This document shows, piece by piece, positions 9,999-16,130 of a DNA stretch of 36,836 nt. The stretch comes from Arcicella rosea (GTDB lineage Bacteria > Bacteroidota > Bacteroidia > Cytophagales > Spirosomataceae): positions 1-36,836 of the forward strand of contig NZ_JACHKT010000043.1 of NCBI RefSeq assembly GCF_014204325.1. The letters are read 5' to 3'. A program made the position numbers and the translations under genes. The notes under the pieces were generated by a model. The model ran no database searches, was not told the origin of the DNA, and saw only the letters and a program-made list of their open reading frames with translations. Every line of letters begins with the position of its first letter. Position 1 is the stretch's first letter.

Positions 9999-12179
9999 TT
10001 ATTCACCGGGATGGTACTTTTTTTCTGCATTTTTCAAGACATCTTCCTTATAAAAAAGGACATCTTTGAATTTTCCTTTTGTGTACATCAACAATTGGTC
10101 ATTAAAGTGTTTGGAGCTTGGGTCGCCACTTTCACCACCTGCTAAAAGCGATTTTGCTTTAATTTTCTTGCCAAATTCAACCGCACAAATAAAACTGTTT
10201 CCTCCTACTCCGTATCTTTTGTTCGTTCCTTGATAATATCGACTGTTATAAGAAGGTAAAGAACCCCATAAAGCAGAAGCAAAACCTACAGGAACACTTG
10301 GTTCGTTGTCGTTATACTTGGCTTGTAAATCTCCATTTAGTCGTTGAAAACGATTGATTTTCCCCCATGCTATTTCCCAAGTACCAAACTTTTTTGTTAA
10401 ATCATTGATAACTGTTATCAAAGCTGGCATCAATTGAGCAACCGTAGCATTCGCAGCAAATCTTTTCGTATTTTCTACTTGGTCGGTTTCTCCTTGGTCG
10501 ATGTACAATCTTTGTATAACTGGATTCAACTTCTGAGCCCATTCTACCGCCAAAGTAGTAGCAACAGAATTTTCAGACGAATAATAATCCCATTTTTTCA
10601 GTACTTCAATCGGTGCTTTTAATTGATTATAAAGTGAATCGCTTGGTTTCACATCACGTTCATAAGTTTTTACCAAAGCAGGAATAAGGACTTCAAAAGC
10701 TGATAAATAAGTATCATAACCCGCTTCAATTACTTTATCAATTGTATATTTTTTCTCACGGTCTAATACTCTTACGGCATTTACACCTCTGAAATTTTCG
10801 CCATCTGGAGCCATATAAGATGGATAATTTTCTCGTTTCGGGCTATTCACTCCTGCTACCGAAAAAGGCGTTGAATTACAATTTTGTAACCAACCATTCA
10901 CTGGATTATACAAATGAACGGTTTCATCAACAGCATGTAAACCTTTCCATTCTGTTGCCGCAATTGAACCGTCAACTGGTTTTGCCCAATTGTATTGATT
11001 ATCTCTTTTGGGAATATAATTTCCATGCCAATAAGCGATATTTCCTTTATTATCTGCAAAAACAGTATTGTTTGAAGTATTCGCTTTCAAAGCCATTACT
11101 TGTTTATAATCTTCAAAACCTTTGGCTTTGGTTCGTTTCCAACTCTGAATTAAGCTGACAACCGAACGATTATAAGACTTTAAACTCAACCATTTATCAT
11201 CTCTTTTCGCCATGATTGGCCCGTGATGTGTAAAGTAAGTTGTAAAGGTTTTTTGTTTTAATTCGTTTCCTGATTGATAACTAATTGTAATTTTCTTTTC
11301 AGAAACAGGCTTTAATACTCCTTCATATTCATAAAAATACTTTTCGCCCTTTTTGATAATTTTTTCTGCATAAACATCGGCAACATCAACGTTACTAGAT
11401 GTGTGCATCCATCCACAATAAGGATTAAAACCCTGATAAACAAACATTTGACCCCAAGTAACTGCTCCATAAGCATTTAATCCTTCTTCGCTAATTACTT
11501 GTACTTCTGGTCTGAAATAAAAAGTGACGTGTGGATTGATGTACAAAATGGCATTGCCAGAAGCCGTAATTTTAGGAGAAAAAGCAAAACCATTTGAACC
11601 TGTTTGATGGTCTGAAAGTTTAGGAACAGCCACTGCCGAGACCAAACTTCCTGAGTAAAAATTCTTTAAATCTGCAATACTTAGATCCGCCGTACTGATA
11701 GCACCAATACTTCCATCCGTCCATAATAAAGGATACCAAGGTTGAAAACGAGTCAATATCGCTGGTTTTACAGCTGGATGCGTGTGCAAATAATAATTAA
11801 TTCCATCGGCATAAGCGTTTAATAACTTCTTCAACCAAGGTGCTGCTTTTTGATAATCCGCTTTGGCTTCGGTTGTATCAATCAGCAAACGAATTTGTAA
11901 ATCATTATACAATTCAGATTCACCTTTTAGCTCCGAGATTCGTCCTAATTTTTCAATATAATTCATTTCTACCCGTTTGAAATCGTCTTCGCATTGTGCA
12001 TAAAGTAACCCAAAAACAGCATCAGCATCCGACTTTCCATAAATATGAGGAATCCCCCAATTATCCCGAATAATGTTTACTCGCTGAGCTTGTTGCTTAA
12101 AACGACTGATTTCTAAAGTAGAAAATTTTTGAGCGAAAATAGAGAAAGGAAGAAAAAGCAGTAAAATAACTTTTTTCAT
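9999..12179 (-). CDS. penicillin acylase family Ntn-hydrolase
   Basis: Secreted N-terminal-nucleophile amidohydrolase of the penicillin G acylase / acyl-homoserine-lactone acylase family, 726 residues from the ATG at 12177-12179. That start places a proper signal peptide first (MKKVILLLFLPFSIFAQ); the longer frame from 12227 adds 16 residues before it and is rejected. The alpha-chain motif is RDNWGIPHIYGKSDADAVFGLLYAQ (pre-processing chain). The nucleophile is S195 in TGSNGFAF, exposed by autoproteolysis at G194-S195. The beta chain continues to the C-terminus and includes INPHVTFYFRPEV and GGESGDPSSKHFNDQL. Substrate could be beta-lactams, N-acyl amino acids or acyl-homoserine lactones; the sequence does not decide. 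It runs divergently from the LanB gene. Confidence 0.9.
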   Translation of the reverse strand: MKKVILLLFLPFSIFAQKFSTLEISRFKQQAQRVNIIRDNWGIPHIYGKSDADAVFGLLYAQCEDDFKRVEMNYIEKLGRISELKGESELYNDLQIRLLIDTTEAKADYQKAAPWLKKLLNAYADGINYYLHTHPAVKPAILTRFQPWYPLLWTDGSIGAISTADLSIADLKNFYSGSLVSAVAVPKLSDHQTGSNGFAFSPKITASGNAILYINPHVTFYFRPEVQVISEEGLNAYGAVTWGQMFVYQGFNPYCGWMHTSSNVDVADVYAEKIIKKGEKYFYEYEGVLKPVSEKKITISYQSGNELKQKTFTTYFTHHGPIMAKRDDKWLSLKSYNRSVVSLIQSWKRTKAKGFEDYKQVMALKANTSNNTVFADNKGNIAYWHGNYIPKRDNQYNWAKPVDGSIAATEWKGLHAVDETVHLYNPVNGWLQNCNSTPFSVAGVNSPKRENYPSYMAPDGENFRGVNAVRVLDREKKYTIDKVIEAGYDTYLSAFEVLIPALVKTYERDVKPSDSLYNQLKAPIEVLKKWDYYSSENSVATTLAVEWAQKLNPVIQRLYIDQGETDQVENTKRFAANATVAQLMPALITVINDLTKKFGTWEIAWGKINRFQRLNGDLQAKYNDNEPSVPVGFASALWGSLPSYNSRYYQGTNKRYGVGGNSFICAVEFGKKIKAKSLLAGGESGDPSSKHFNDQLLMYTKGKFKDVLFYKEDVLKNAEKKYHPGE

Positions 12180-12498
12180 ATTTGATTTTATTGAATGATG
12201 AAGTTTTCTGTATAAACAAACATACAAAATTCATAGAAATTTCAGCCACTTTTAGGTTTAAACTTTATCTCTTTCTTCCTTTATAAATGAATTCTTTCGG
12301 AAAATTGGGGAAATTTTGAAGCTAGAAAAATGATATTGCTAAAGAGCTTTTAGTGATATATGTTAAGAAAAATAATGATTGAAACAATAATATTTCCTTA
12401 AAATGTTCTTTAAAACGATAATAAAATTATCAATTCGTACAATTTTAGGCATTAAGCATTAAATTTGGAGATACCGTCAAACCAATCGTTAGCTTTTA
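12180..12498. other. divergent intergenic region between acylase and lanB-like genes
   Basis: 319 bases separate the two divergent genes. On the minus strand TATGTTTG (12217-12224) is a perfect -7 box for the acylase gene, with a weak -33 region. On the plus strand TAAATTTG (12460-12467) matches the -7 consensus before the LanB gene, but no TTG is correctly spaced. Only tiny ORFs exist (for example 12403-12462, 19 codons), none resembling a lanthipeptide precursor. Confidence 0.4.
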
Positions 12499-15400
12499 AT
12501 GTCGAATTCATATCAATTTCTGAAAAAAATCATTGTAAGAACGCCCACGCTTCCATTTGCAGATGATATTTCAGAAGATTTCTTAAAAAAAATACTCAAC
12601 CATCCGCCTTTCTTAGAGGCACTTTATTTGGCTTCTCCTATACTTTTTAATGAAGCACAACTTTGGAAAGATGGGAATATTACTAATGTTAAAAAAGCTC
12701 AAAAAATAGTCTTTTCGCTCAGTAAATATTATTCCAGAATGTGTAGTCGATGTACTCCTTTCGGGCTTTTTGCGGGTTGTTCGGTCGTTGAGTGGAGTGA
12801 TGAAACAGCTTTAACTATCGCTTCCGAAAAAAGAAGAAGTACTCGTTTGGATATGCACTACGCAGGTGCTTTGGCACAAAGTTTATCCGAAATCCCTTTC
12901 ATCAAAAGTCATTTATTGTATTTTCCAAACTCAAGTATTTATCAAATCGGTCAAGAAATTCGCTATGTTGAATATAAATATGTTGATGGAAAAAGAACAC
13001 ATCAAATTTCCGCTTTTGAATGGTCTGAATACATTGCTCTGGTATTGGATGCTTGTAAAAAAGGAGCAAAAATGTCGGATATTGCACCACTTTTGATAGA
13101 CGATGACATTTCGGAAGAAGATGCTTTGGGTTTTATCGAACAATTAGTTGATGCTCAACTCTTGATTAATGAATTAGAACCAGCTATTACTGGTGAAGGT
13201 TTGACACAACAAATTATCAAAGTACTTCAGAAAATCAATGTCGATGAACATTATCTTGATACTTTACAAAGTATTGAAAATCAATTAAAAGCAATTGATA
13301 GTCAGCAGATTAATGAGATAAGTATTTATCAGGAAATTACAAAACTTATTACAAAAATTGGCGTTCCTTTTGAAGAAGGGAAATTATTTCAAACAGATTT
13401 GGTAAATCTATTTCATGAGAACAAACTTTCGTCAGTTTATCAAGAAGCATTAAGTGAAATTGCTGAGCTTTTGATTCAAGTAAGTGAAAAAAGAGAGAAT
13501 CCAACGCAAAGTGATTTTATTCAAAAATTTTATGAGCGTTATGAAAATCAAGAAATTCCTTTACTCATTGTAATGGATACAGAAACAGGTATTGGCTACG
13601 GACAAACTGGCAAAAGTAATTTTACCCCAATTGCCAATGGCTTTGAATTAAATCATGAAAAAAAAGAGGAAATTACGGTTAAATTAAATGCTTTTCAGCA
13701 ACATCTTTATGGAAAATACTTGAATGCCCTTAAAGAAAATGCTTTACAAGTAAATTTGAATGAAGATGATTTTAAGCCTTTTCTGCAAAAAAAAGACAAA
13801 ACACCAAGTTCTACTTCGATGATTTTTAGATTGACTGGCGATGAAGAATTGCCAATTTATCTGGAAAAATTGGGTGGAACAAGTGCCGTCAATTTATTAG
13901 GAAGATTCGCACATACCGACAAAGCTATTTTGGATATTATTCAAGAAATTACTGAAAAAGAACAAGCATTGAATCCAGAAGTGGTCTTTGCTGAAATTGT
14001 ACATTTACCAGAAAACAGAATTGGAAACATTTTACTTCATCCTGCTTTTTGGAAATATGAAATTCCGTACTTAGCCAAATCGTCTTTGCCAGAAAATCAG
14101 CAAATTTTATTGGAAGATTTATTGGTTTCTGTGGATATTAGTCAACAAAAAATCAGGTTAAAATCAAAAAGATTAAACAAAGAAGTAATTCCAAGGCTCA
14201 GTAATGCCCATAATTATTCAATGAATGCCTTACCCATTTATCATTTTTTATGTGATTTACAAAGTGCTAATCTAGTGGTTGCCTTTGATACTGGCTGGAG
14301 AAAAGTTACTCAGAATACCAGATTTTCACCTCGACTTACTTATAAAAATATTATCCTTGAAGCTGCAACTTGGCAATTCAAGAAAGAAGATTTTGAACAT
14401 TTACTCATCAATTCTCCTGAAAATTTATTAGTAATTTTCCATGAATTCAGTGTAAAATGGCAATTACCAAAGCGATTTGTATTAGTGGATTTTGATAATG
14501 AATTGTTAGTAAATACTGAAAACTTACTGAGTATTCAGACTTGGCTCGATGCTATTAAAAATCGTGATAAGATTGAGCTAAAAGAATTCTTATTTACACC
14601 CAACAATGGGCACATCGTTAACCAATCAGGAGCATTTTTTACGAATCAGTTTATTGCATCTTTAATTAACAAGAAAACTATTTTTGAGCAAATTCCAGCT
14701 CAAAAACCTTTGAATCATGATATTCAACGTACTTTTTCTTTAGGTTCAGAATGGCTTTATCTTAAAATTTATTCAGGAGTTAAAGCTGCTGATGATATTT
14801 TAGCACAAAACATTAAGTCTTTGGTTGAGCAATTTCTGGAAAAGCAATTAATTGACAAATGGTTTTTTATCCGCTATACCGACCCTGATAATCATATTCG
14901 CTTACGACTTCATTTTACTGATTTGAAGCATTTGGGTGAAGTAATTCTTGGTCTGAAAGAGACTTTAGACGATTTAGAAAAAGAAGGAATTATCTGGAAA
15001 ATTCAATATGATACTTATCAAAGAGAAATAGAAAGATATGGTGCTGATGTCATGATTTTAACTGAAAATATCTTTTTTCATGATAGCGAAACCATTGCAA
15101 ATCTGTTGGCACAAACTTGGGGCGATGAAAGAGAGCATTTGCGTTGGCAATTTGCGATGAAACTAATTGATACTTTTCTTGATGATTTTGGGTTTTCACT
15201 TTACCAAAAACTTGATTTGATGTATCTAATGAAAGAAAATTTTGCCCAAGAATTTCATATTGACAAGCCTTTCAAACTACAAATGGATAAGCGTTTTAGA
15301 GAATACAGAAAAAATATCGAAATGATTCTTGGGTCAGAAACAAATGAAGAGTACGCACTTCTATTTGAGAGTATTCAACAAAAAAGCAAAAAAATAAAGG

Positions 15401-15591
15401 AGAATATCGAGCAAATAAAAGCCTTAAAATCTAAACATACACTAAACAAATATTTATCAAGCATCATTCACATGACAGTAAACAGAGTTATTGCCAACAA
15501 CCAACGTTTTCATGAATTAATTATTTATGATTTTATGTATAGATTTTATCAAGCGGAAACCGCTAAACAAAAGAAAGCTGATAAAATGTAA
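12499..15591 (+). CDS. full-length LanB-type lanthipeptide dehydratase
   Basis: Class I lanthipeptide dehydratase, 1030 residues, close to NisB in length. The N-terminal glutamylation domain (about 1-720) adds glutamate from glutamyl-tRNA to Ser/Thr of a precursor peptide. Its signature is SRCTPFGLFAG (R84, T86). The C-terminal elimination domain, also called thiopeptide-type or SpaB_C (about 745-1015), starts at SEWLYLKIYSG and contains WFFIRYTDPDNHIRLRLHF, the usual catalytic arginine and substrate region. Cytoplasmic, no signal peptide. The frame is intact, so it is probably functional. A MarR regulator gene follows after 22 bases, apparently in the same transcript. LanC cyclase, transporter, protease and precursor genes, normally adjacent, are absent, so the peptide substrate is unknown. 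Confidence 0.9.
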   Translation: MSNSYQFLKKIIVRTPTLPFADDISEDFLKKILNHPPFLEALYLASPILFNEAQLWKDGNITNVKKAQKIVFSLSKYYSRMCSRCTPFGLFAGCSVVEWSDETALTIASEKRRSTRLDMHYAGALAQSLSEIPFIKSHLLYFPNSSIYQIGQEIRYVEYKYVDGKRTHQISAFEWSEYIALVLDACKKGAKMSDIAPLLIDDDISEEDALGFIEQLVDAQLLINELEPAITGEGLTQQIIKVLQKINVDEHYLDTLQSIENQLKAIDSQQINEISIYQEITKLITKIGVPFEEGKLFQTDLVNLFHENKLSSVYQEALSEIAELLIQVSEKRENPTQSDFIQKFYERYENQEIPLLIVMDTETGIGYGQTGKSNFTPIANGFELNHEKKEEITVKLNAFQQHLYGKYLNALKENALQVNLNEDDFKPFLQKKDKTPSSTSMIFRLTGDEELPIYLEKLGGTSAVNLLGRFAHTDKAILDIIQEITEKEQALNPEVVFAEIVHLPENRIGNILLHPAFWKYEIPYLAKSSLPENQQILLEDLLVSVDISQQKIRLKSKRLNKEVIPRLSNAHNYSMNALPIYHFLCDLQSANLVVAFDTGWRKVTQNTRFSPRLTYKNIILEAATWQFKKEDFEHLLINSPENLLVIFHEFSVKWQLPKRFVLVDFDNELLVNTENLLSIQTWLDAIKNRDKIELKEFLFTPNNGHIVNQSGAFFTNQFIASLINKKTIFEQIPAQKPLNHDIQRTFSLGSEWLYLKIYSGVKAADDILAQNIKSLVEQFLEKQLIDKWFFIRYTDPDNHIRLRLHFTDLKHLGEVILGLKETLDDLEKEGIIWKIQYDTYQREIERYGADVMILTENIFFHDSETIANLLAQTWGDEREHLRWQFAMKLIDTFLDDFGFSLYQKLDLMYLMKENFAQEFHIDKPFKLQMDKRFREYRKNIEMILGSETNEEYALLFESIQQKSKKIKENIEQIKALKSKHTLNKYLSSIIHMTVNRVIANNQRFHELIIYDFMYRFYQAETAKQKKADKM

Positions 15592-15613
15592 TAATCAATT
15601 ATTCGAAAAAACT

Positions 15614-16060
15614 ATGACTACCAATCCAGCAGATAATAGAGCTTACTTTTTTAAGATAGATACTACTATCAAAAAAATAAGGCTCATCCTTCAAAAGAAA
15701 ATTGACGATGCCAAAATAGACTTAACAGTTGACCAATGGGTTTTGCTTGATCATATTAAAAGAAATGAAGAGTTTGGCATTAGCCAAAATGAACTGGCAG
15801 AAATGACTGTTAAAGATGCTCCTACAGTTACTAGAATCATTGATTTGTTAGTAAAAAAAGGATTTGCAGAAAGAAGTATGATGCCAACCGATAGGCGTAG
15901 ATTTATGATTACTTTAACGGATGCGGGAAGGGATATTTTTGAAAAAGCCTATCCAATTGTTGTTGAAGTAAGAAGAAAAGGTTGGGGAGATTTGTCGGAG
16001 GAAGATTATAAGAATTTTGTAAAAATCCTTGATACTATTTATTCAAATATAACGCATTGA
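15614..16060 (+). CDS. MarR-family winged-helix transcriptional regulator
   Basis: 148 residues from the ATG at 15614. The frame is open upstream to 15527, but that would overlap the LanB gene. The MarR layout is clear: N-terminal dimer helix (about 8-35), then the winged helix with LTVDQWVLLDHIKR, GISQNELAEMTVKDAPTVTRIIDLLVKKGF (recognition helix about 70-85) and the wing DRRRFMITLTDAGRDIF, then a C-terminal dimer helix. Members usually sense small aromatic or toxic compounds and repress nearby genes. Placement 22 bases after lanB suggests co-transcription and control of the dehydratase operon, an inference. It ends just before a 46-bp perfect palindrome and is convergent with the asparaginase gene. 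Confidence 0.9.
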   Translation: MTTNPADNRAYFFKIDTTIKKIRLILQKKIDDAKIDLTVDQWVLLDHIKRNEEFGISQNELAEMTVKDAPTVTRIIDLLVKKGFAERSMMPTDRRRFMITLTDAGRDIFEKAYPIVVEVRRKGWGDLSEEDYKNFVKILDTIYSNITH

Positions 16061-16084: not shown

Positions 16085-16130
16085 ATTTTCCTATTAGCTG
16101 GCGAATTAATTCGCCAGCTAATAGGAAAAT
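16085..16130. repeat. 46-bp perfect palindrome between convergent genes
   Basis: Two 23-base arms (ATTTTCCTATTAGCTGGCGAATT and its exact complement) meet at 16107/16108 with no spacer and no mismatch. It sits between the MarR stop and the asparaginase stop, as a bidirectional terminator would. However, the T-runs are on the 5' side of each strand and A-runs on the 3' side, the opposite of an intrinsic terminator, and no T-tract follows on either side. Confidence 0.9.

Follow-up and report, generated by a model that had tools for sequence, protein, structure and literature searches.

An orphan full-length LanB of Arcicella rosea and candidate peptide substrates encoded elsewhere in its genome

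The orphan lanB gene considered here, from a 36.8-kb stretch of the Arcicella rosea genome, is best compared with class I lanthipeptide biosynthesis, as in nisin, and with pheromone systems of the agr/com type, in which a small peptide gene lies beside genes for a histidine kinase and a LytTR regulator. In the nisin system, dehydration by NisB depends on Y80, R83, R87, R14, W616 and H961 (PMC4341554) and elimination on R786, R826 and H961 (PMC4979651), and the zinc ligands of NisC are C284, C330 and H331 (PMC9889658). Orphan LanBs were noted in 2010 in Spirosoma linguale, which has 4 LanBs, one of them in a cluster (PMC3091789). One survey started from LanC and took in seven genes on either side (PMC7268733); another lists 14 peptides with a LanB and a cyclase lacking the zinc triad (PMC11251773). 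Substrates without cysteine (Cys) have precedents in some scattered LanM substrates (cyanotins) and in some LanM precursors encoded beside LanKC (PMC7268733).

The window, i.e. the whole stretch analyzed, is the entire contig C43 of the genome (G000; 5.31 Mb, 77 contigs, 99.99% complete), so that the known neighbourhood of lanB stops at the contig ends. We found that this genome has, on contigs C6 and C36, genes for peptides of 42 and 41 amino acids (aa) with related leaders. On the sequence evidence given below, the balance tilts moderately toward a working tRNA-Glu-dependent dehydratase with trans-encoded substrates, whose products would be mostly ring-less and probably signals. Comparisons were made in 222 genomes of the family and in a sample of 390 genomes from the order.

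The LanB dehydratase and its clade

12499..15591, + strand: full-length LanB dehydratase, 1030 aa (Pfam, TIGR03891, phmmer), the only LanB of the genome (sole PF04738 match)
12601..14535, + strand: Lant_dehydr_N (glutamylation) domain, residues 35-679 (Pfam); catalytic residues conserved
14752..15549, + strand: Lant_dehydr_C (glutamate elimination) domain, residues 752-1017 (Pfam); R803, R846, H991

A preliminary description of this stretch had presented the gene as an orphan full-length LanB with intact motifs and proposed a profile search, which bore this out. The Lant_dehydr_N domain (expected value, E, 3.6e-137; 458.7 bits against a cut-off of 28) and the Lant_dehydr_C domain (E 5.1e-69; 233.7 bits against 24.4) are covered nearly end to end in one chain, TIGR03891 matches at 3.1e-65, the motifs SRCTPFGLFAG and RYTDPDNHIRLRLHF are present, and the protein aligns over nearly its full length with PDB 9g04 and with NisB (4wd9/6m7y). 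NisB residues Y80, R83 and R87 correspond to Y77, R80 and R84, NisB R14 and W616 to R14 and W625, and NisB R786, R826 and H961 to R803, R846 and H991; the NisB numbering was counted by hand on the phmmer alignment, H961 by its match line, and R14 of the window LanB was placed by motif, as its position precedes the printed NisB alignment. Y77, R80, R84, T86, R469 and W625, as well as R14, R803, R846 and H991, are kept in all 14 members of the clade described below. By these domain and residue criteria, the window LanB is a full-length class I dehydratase.

LanB is present in 117 of the 222 family genomes, and the window LanB sits in a 14-member clade (SH-aLRT support 100; 100/100 in a second tree) spanning four genera: g1, the genus of A. 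rosea (8 genomes), g11 (4), g12 and g24. All 8 listed g1 genomes have the LanB, the list not including every LanB-free genome. Ratios of nonsynonymous to synonymous substitution rates (dN/dS, Nei-Gojobori) were 0.08-0.15 in six near pairs of LanB relatives, and 0.17 in a seventh, the window LanB against that of G041, for which dS is near-saturated. Since there are 14 orthologues with a support of 100 and the dN/dS of the relatives is about 0.1, the window LanB is judged not to be a relic: it is conserved, not decaying, and its relatives are under purifying selection.

The reported absence of LanC nearby also held on a wider scale. No LanC-like frame occurs in the window or in the fetched lanB stretch of any other clade member (15-19 kb each, 36.8 kb for the window; the contig ends 1.3, 2.0 and 4.8 kb from lanB in G045, G044 and G041, respectively), and the A. 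rosea genome has no PF05147 match at E <= 0.001. Eight of the 14 clade genomes have no LANC_like match anywhere, and the sole match in G152 is a protein without the Cys-Cys-His zinc triad. The other five (G039, G040, G045, G117 and G121) have matches elsewhere in the genome, which in G039, G040, G117 and G121 lie near other LanBs. LanBs without LanC in the fetched stretch are found elsewhere in the tree as well (e.g. L083, L084, L086, L088-L090); these were analyzed by tree only, with no substrate search. In five LanB clusters (L052, L064, L078, L085 and L087) there are two adjacent LanC-like genes, one carrying the Cys-Cys-His triad and the other Cys followed by a hydrophobic and an aromatic residue (CMY, CLY, CLF). 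In a Bacteroidales metagenome-assembled genome (L002, 1377-4546), the gene for the LanB beside a LanC is split or interrupted, reading as two open reading frames (ORFs) of 754 and 302 aa with a slight overlap.

Candidate substrate peptides and their loci

G000:C6:48555-48683: 42-aa candidate peptide MKNSTKLILKKGTITQFNSEVNIGNLQQKSLTNISTVRTWGI (leader profiles A2/A3/A4)
G000:C36:6651-6776: 41-aa candidate peptide MKNSKLNISKKTVSSLSLKAHAPKSGKTNLVTADTMVTFII (leader profiles A3/A4)

Both A. rosea peptides are free of Cys and have Ser/Thr in the C-terminal part; both match leader profile A4, yet both are rows of it. These two precursor candidates on other contigs, together with candidate peptide genes in 13 of the 14 clade genomes, support the earlier suggestion that the substrate is encoded elsewhere. 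Beside the C6 peptide (L122) are genes for a divergent His_kinase (PF06580; 2.4e-20), which we take to be LytS-like, and a LytTR regulator (1.4e-17). Downstream of the peptide are genes for a LanC-like protein, an AraC-type regulator, a cyclic nucleotide monophosphate (cNMP)-binding protein, TolC, HlyD and an NHLP-type exporter of the peptidase-ATP-binding cassette (ABC) kind (TIGR03796, 1057.7 bits). The LanC-like protein (248 aa) is a sub-threshold match to LANC_like (20.1 bits against a cut-off of 23.2) and has Y-K-S in place of the zinc triad. The NHLP-type export set and three NHLP-leader peptides are at L122 1051-6647 and 13366-17708, the peptides lying past the two-component genes, with a possible glycosyltransferase. 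The C36 peptide (L178) has a kinase/regulator pair on one side and a DUF5686 gene of outer-membrane type on the other, these three genes being recognized as homologues of those at C6 and in G117; the same layout is seen in G040, G041, G043, g11 and G121 and, as far as the contig reaches, in G044. The genome has 8 kinases of the C6 type at E <= 1e-25.

Peptide, kinase and regulator are in cis to lanB for four related LanBs (G131, G146, G130 and G046; 33-38% identity to the window LanB), the peptide being an ORF of 37-51 residues beyond a reversed LytTR regulator and histidine kinase. The leader of these peptides reads L-x-I-R-K-T-T-V-x-K-[FLM], and three of the four contain short repeats (e.g. 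HTIPF x4, CHTIPY x2). Profile A2, with 7 rows (the four cis peptides, two LanC-type peptides and one from G152), was run at a permissive E <= 10 on 20 genomes (the 14-member clade, the four cis genomes, G108 and the LanC-type G164). It gave some match in 19 of them, the useful ones being tandem arrays far from lanB in G117 (7 genes), G116 (7), G118 (8) and G119 (3).

Profile A3, a leader profile of 15 rows including the A. rosea C6 peptide, was run on the 222 genomes and matched at E <= 1e-3 in 17 (G000, G039-G041, G043-G046, G108, G116-G119, G130, G131, G146 and G152), 16 of which carry a LanB of the 14- or the four-member clade. The remaining one is G108, whose LanBs are outside both clades, so that the decision to count it came only once its match was known. 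With G108 included, a match was found in 17 of 19 genomes with such a LanB vs 0 of 203 others, and the Fisher value of 1.5e-23 is not to be taken at face value, given the kinship of the genomes and the use of LanB-bearing ones to build the profile. Matches outside the rows of A3 were obtained in G041 (1.6e-6), G044 (2.0e-6) and G152 (5.1e-4; an A2 row), and further ones at a second G045 locus (0.018) and at C36 of A. rosea (0.025). The two genomes missed were G042 (best 0.196) and G121 (best 0.007, a LanC-type Gly-Gly peptide), and the best genome outside the set was G107 (0.0046). In G121, a 47-aa peptide (MKNLTSNSKLKFNKNTVVSFD...), reported by neither A2 nor A3, was found by its position in the kinase-DUF5686 interval.

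Two genomes without LanB are worth noting. G120, a congener (g11) of G116-G119, has kept DUF5686, kinase and regulator, and its DUF5686-kinase interval of about 200 bp contains no peptide in any frame; its best A3 match elsewhere is an 18-aa frame at 0.29. This contrast, from one genome, is informative because LanB and peptide are unlinked in its congeners. G129 (g20) is likewise not among the A3 matches and says less, because LanB and peptide are linked in its g20 kin.

The candidates were tabulated as 21 peptides, one for each array or locus. A kinase and a regulator, recognized by homology to the C6 pair, are near 20 of them. At all 16 loci tabulated first, the kinase is within 0.9 kb and the regulator within 1.5 kb of the peptide, and the pair is also near the peptides of G041, C36 of A. 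rosea, C29 of G045 and G121; in G044 the contig ends, and a kinase fragment and a regulator of the right kind open another contig. Cys is absent from 15 of the 21 peptides. Repeated cores were seen by eye in 11 (e.g. TASIISNF x3, MTGGISSHP x2, FGTGAMTMM x3), and some clade genomes have tandem peptide arrays with repeated Ser/Thr cores. In the G117 array, the 7 copies differ at 13 nucleotides and at no residue; the numbers of variable nucleotides and residues were 26 and 3 in G118, 9 and 3 in G119 and 12 and 2 in G116, every variable residue being at position 25 or earlier, before the repeats. This mostly silent variation points to translation and constraint, although gene conversion could also make the copies alike.

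A DUF5686 gene is beside 10 of the 21 peptides, a 166-aa partial match near the G146 peptide not being counted and the G152 locus not being judged, as the interval contains a run of unknown bases. Genes of this DUF5686/carboxypeptidase-regulatory-like outer-membrane type occur at L123-L127, L129, L176-L178, L212 and L216; the protein may possibly import or sense the peptide, as an outer-membrane receptor or porter. Within 6 kb of the peptide, G000, G039 and G108 have a peptidase-ABC-like gene and G043b has an ABC gene. Of ten peptides scanned with NF038153 (lant_leader_L1a), that of G116 scored 22.7 bits against a cut-off of 22, four others scored 13.3-18.2 bits, and the C6 peptide and four more gave no match at E <= 1. 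By eye, the Gly-Gly leader end is absent from all 21 peptides and present in the LanC-type peptides L106 and L117.

Beyond the family, A4 matched at E <= 0.001 in 8 of the 390 order genomes: six known A4 rows, G261 and G532. The G261 match (22.7 bits) was rejected as spurious, being inside a 984-aa frame; G532, from another family, has peptide, kinase, regulator, LanC-like gene and LanB together. The three best plasmid matches to the window LanB, all in Hymenobacter (NZ_CP141187.1, NZ_CP114769.1 and NZ_CP110137.1), likewise have lanB, LytTR, kinase, a LanC-like gene and an unannotated Cys-free peptide together, the peptides having been chosen by eye and having a leader of the same kind. All 7 LanC-like proteins beside such peptides (C6, G039, G152, G532 and the three Hymenobacter plasmids) lack the Cys-Cys-His triad, which is present in 30 of the 39 other LanC-like frames of at least 330 aa in the set. 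On the tree this type takes two changes, which allows for either one origin or two. Hymenobacter sp. GOD-10R has, a few kb away from its plasmid-borne lanB cassette, a TOMM-type set (YcaO, SagB-like and leader-binding protein; L238, 941-4103).

Genes around lanB in the window

15614..16060, + strand: MarR-family regulator of 148 aa with its ATG start at 15614 (MarR_2, 2.6e-11); adjacency not conserved
9999..12227, - strand: divergent penicillin-amidase family protein (Penicil_amidase, 2.5e-117); judged unrelated
12228..12498, no strand: intergenic region upstream of lanB; no precursor-like ORF

The MarR gene following lanB and the divergent acylase gene preceding it are both as first described, the marR ATG being 22 bases past the lanB stop on the same strand; the acylase ORF opens at a TTG (12227), and the start is probably at 12179, before the signal-like MKKVILLLF. 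The roles proposed for them fared less well. MarR orthologues (68-78% identical) are present in 12 of the 13 other clade genomes, G121 having none at E <= 1e-30. They are on the contig of lanB in 9 of these genomes, about 3.6 to 49 kb away, and on a different contig in 3; in G042 and G043, marR adjoins a biopterin-dependent hydroxylase gene. It adjoins lanB in A. rosea alone among the 13 clade genomes having MarR, and since the adjacency is not conserved, MarR is probably not part of the system. In the stretches fetched for the 13 orthologues, two of which begin 1.3-2 kb before lanB, there is no acylase homologue, so that a tailoring role for the acylase is unsupported. MarR and the acylase were accordingly rejected as LanB partners.

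As to a precursor or transporter near lanB, the described absence stands within what was searched: contig C43 has no leader-profile match, and the window has no homologue of the query kinase, regulator, DUF5686 or peptidase-ABC genes among frames of at least 60 aa at E <= 1e-5, Pfam profiles having been applied to 10 window proteins. The intergenic region upstream of lanB has a single ORF of at least 25 aa (29 aa, opposite strand), which is not precursor-like. Small ORFs beside lanB were rejected as precursors, because inspection of the 14 loci by eye showed none that recurs within 1.5 kb. Of the 7 other genus members, 6 (L033, L034 and L036-L039) have a short-chain dehydrogenase (SDR) gene upstream of or near lanB, and four of these six also have a gene of the 3-keto-disaccharide hydrolase family upstream; as neither gene occurs in the window or is universal, both were rejected as partners. 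Nothing in the window matched in Rfam or tRNA scans. Between marR and a convergent asparaginase gene, a perfect inverted repeat (TTTTCCTATTAGCTGGCGAATT / AATTCGCCAGCTAATAGGAAAA; 16086-16129) was seen by eye and is likely a shared terminator.

Interpretation and comparison with known systems

In the mechanism we propose, LanB would bind the leader of a trans-encoded peptide, glutamylate Ser/Thr of the core and eliminate the glutamate to give dehydroalanine or dehydrobutyrine (Dha/Dhb). Mostly no lanthionine ring would form, because the core is without Cys and there is no zinc-bearing LanC. The trimmed dehydropeptide would leave the cell by some export route and would most likely act as an autoinducer or inducing product, detected by the kinase and regulator encoded next to it. 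The kinase and regulator beside the peptide suggest that the product is sensed, either as a pheromone or as a self-inducing effector. That LanB modifies peptides of the C6/C36 type seems quite likely; mainly ring-less products are also probable, with a little less assurance, and a role as signals appears evenly poised. The absence of Cys from most candidate cores makes plausible the unusual, non-lantibiotic product offered as one option in the preliminary description. A wider proposal, more tentative and with somewhat less than an even chance, is that Bacteroidota have a family of ring-less dehydropeptide pheromones, in which an orphan LanB of the chromosome would serve one or more remote Cys-free peptide loci, the cores being often repeated, each with its own kinase/LytTR pair, LanC would be lost or a zinc-less pseudoenzyme, and dehydration alone would be the functional modification.

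Several observations weigh against trans-encoded, mostly ring-less signals. Cys is present in 6 of the 21 peptides, those of G130 and G046 among them, so rings are possible in some genomes, and the triad-less LanC is no proof against cyclisation, as class III cyclases without zinc residues still form rings (PMC7268733). The candidate peptides of A. rosea are not linked to lanB, neither has repeated cores, and their scores in blind searches were weak (C6, E 0.058 with A2; C36, E 0.025 with A3). The C6 peptide, the one of the two in that scan, is among those without an NF038153 match. No exporter of the peptidase-ABC kind was found within 6 kb at the other 12 of the 16 loci tested, no promoter element common to lanB and the peptides was seen by eye, and in G042 no peptide was found, the kinase fragment and regulator stopping at a contig end. 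The co-occurrence was also drawn from related genomes, with profiles first built from LanB-bearing ones.

The most serious alternative, though clearly the less likely, accepts that LanB modifies trans-encoded peptides and makes the product an antimicrobial or other effector, sensed by the kinase and regulator to induce its production, like NisRK and nisin. In its favour are the two-component genes next to 20 of 21 peptides, the tandem amplification and the repeated cores, which would suit high output, the plasmid location in Hymenobacter and the peptidase-ABC-like gene within 6 kb at 3 of 16 loci; however, exporters of that type are absent from most fetched loci, and retention of LanB by all 8 listed genus members is more like housekeeping. 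It is unlikely that LanB acts instead on other peptides, with the three NHLP-leader peptides of C6 as an example, or on an unknown peptide or protein, the small peptides being passengers inherited along with it. The C6 locus does combine an NHLP exporter (TIGR03796) with NHLP peptides, which were sought by profile at that locus only, but the small peptide, kinase and regulator recur together across genera, and both related clades and plasmids have the peptide in cis to LanB.

The remaining alternatives concern LanB itself. Near kin with LanC (L046 and L070) suggest LanC loss, as expected of a decaying leftover from a class I lanthipeptide cluster that has been lost, yet this is the least probable of all, given the open frame, the catalytic residues kept in 14 of 14, the dN/dS of about 0.1 in relatives and the presence in all 8 listed genus genomes. 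Small LanBs without an elimination domain are known as PEARLs. That the window LanB acts as one, adding an amino acid to a scaffold peptide with no dehydration, is very unlikely: related enzymes do join a tRNA-borne amino acid to a scaffold peptide (PMC11117183), but the window LanB has its elimination domain in full, including R803, R846 and H991. Hardly more can be said for an enzyme under MarR control whose product the acylase next door would tailor, for which the 22-base spacing on the same strand would speak, whereas the adjacency is found in 1 of 13 MarR-bearing clade genomes and the acylase in 0 of 13 orthologous stretches.

If trans-encoded, mostly ring-less signals are indeed made, at least one group of orphan LanBs would gain defined, directly testable substrates. 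Dehydration would then be an end point in modifying a class I peptide, and modified peptide signals would have a candidate family in a Gram-negative phylum. Ready test systems are provided by the contrast with G120 and by the arrays of G116-G119. The data suggest a type of bacterial peptide, for signalling or defence, that has drawn little notice.

The system resembles nisin (NisA, NisB, NisC, NisRK) in its full-length LanB with the NisB residues, its short leader-bearing candidate precursors and the two-component genes beside them. Unlike in nisin, A. rosea has no LanC with a zinc triad, 15 of 21 precursors lack Cys, the precursor is unlinked to LanB, the regulators are of the PF06580/LytTR type, NisRK presumably being of another, and part of the set has repeated cores and tandem arrays. 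The NF038153 class I lanthipeptides resemble part of the set in the leader, the G116 peptide alone of the ten scanned being over the cut-off, but most cores here have no Cys and the Gly-Gly end is absent. As in the agr/com type, the peptide gene adjoins a histidine kinase and a LytTR regulator, at both A. rosea loci and for 20 of 21 peptides; unlike there, the organisms are Gram-negative Bacteroidota, LanB is the putative modifying enzyme, and signalling is likewise putative. In the cyanotins and other prochlorosin-type systems, one enzyme likewise serves precursors scattered in the genome, some cyanotin precursors being without Cys (PMC7268733), but the enzyme is a class II LanM, in contrast to the class I LanB without fused cyclase and the two-component pair by each peptide found here. 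The 'B-Unk' combination joins a LanB to a triad-less LanC-like protein, as in the Hymenobacter cassettes, whereas its survey demanded at least one Cys and a neighbouring cyclase, which leaves Cys-free peptides and a trans-acting LanB outside it (PMC11251773). As far as the sources describe their searches, both surveys would miss a LanB whose substrates are remote and free of Cys, because one starts from LanC (PMC7268733) and the other also requires Cys (PMC11251773); among the open-access titles and abstract openings listed, none concerns a LanB acting on Cys-free peptides beside LytTR systems. The enzyme and the leader type are known, and it is the cyclisation half that is missing or altered here.

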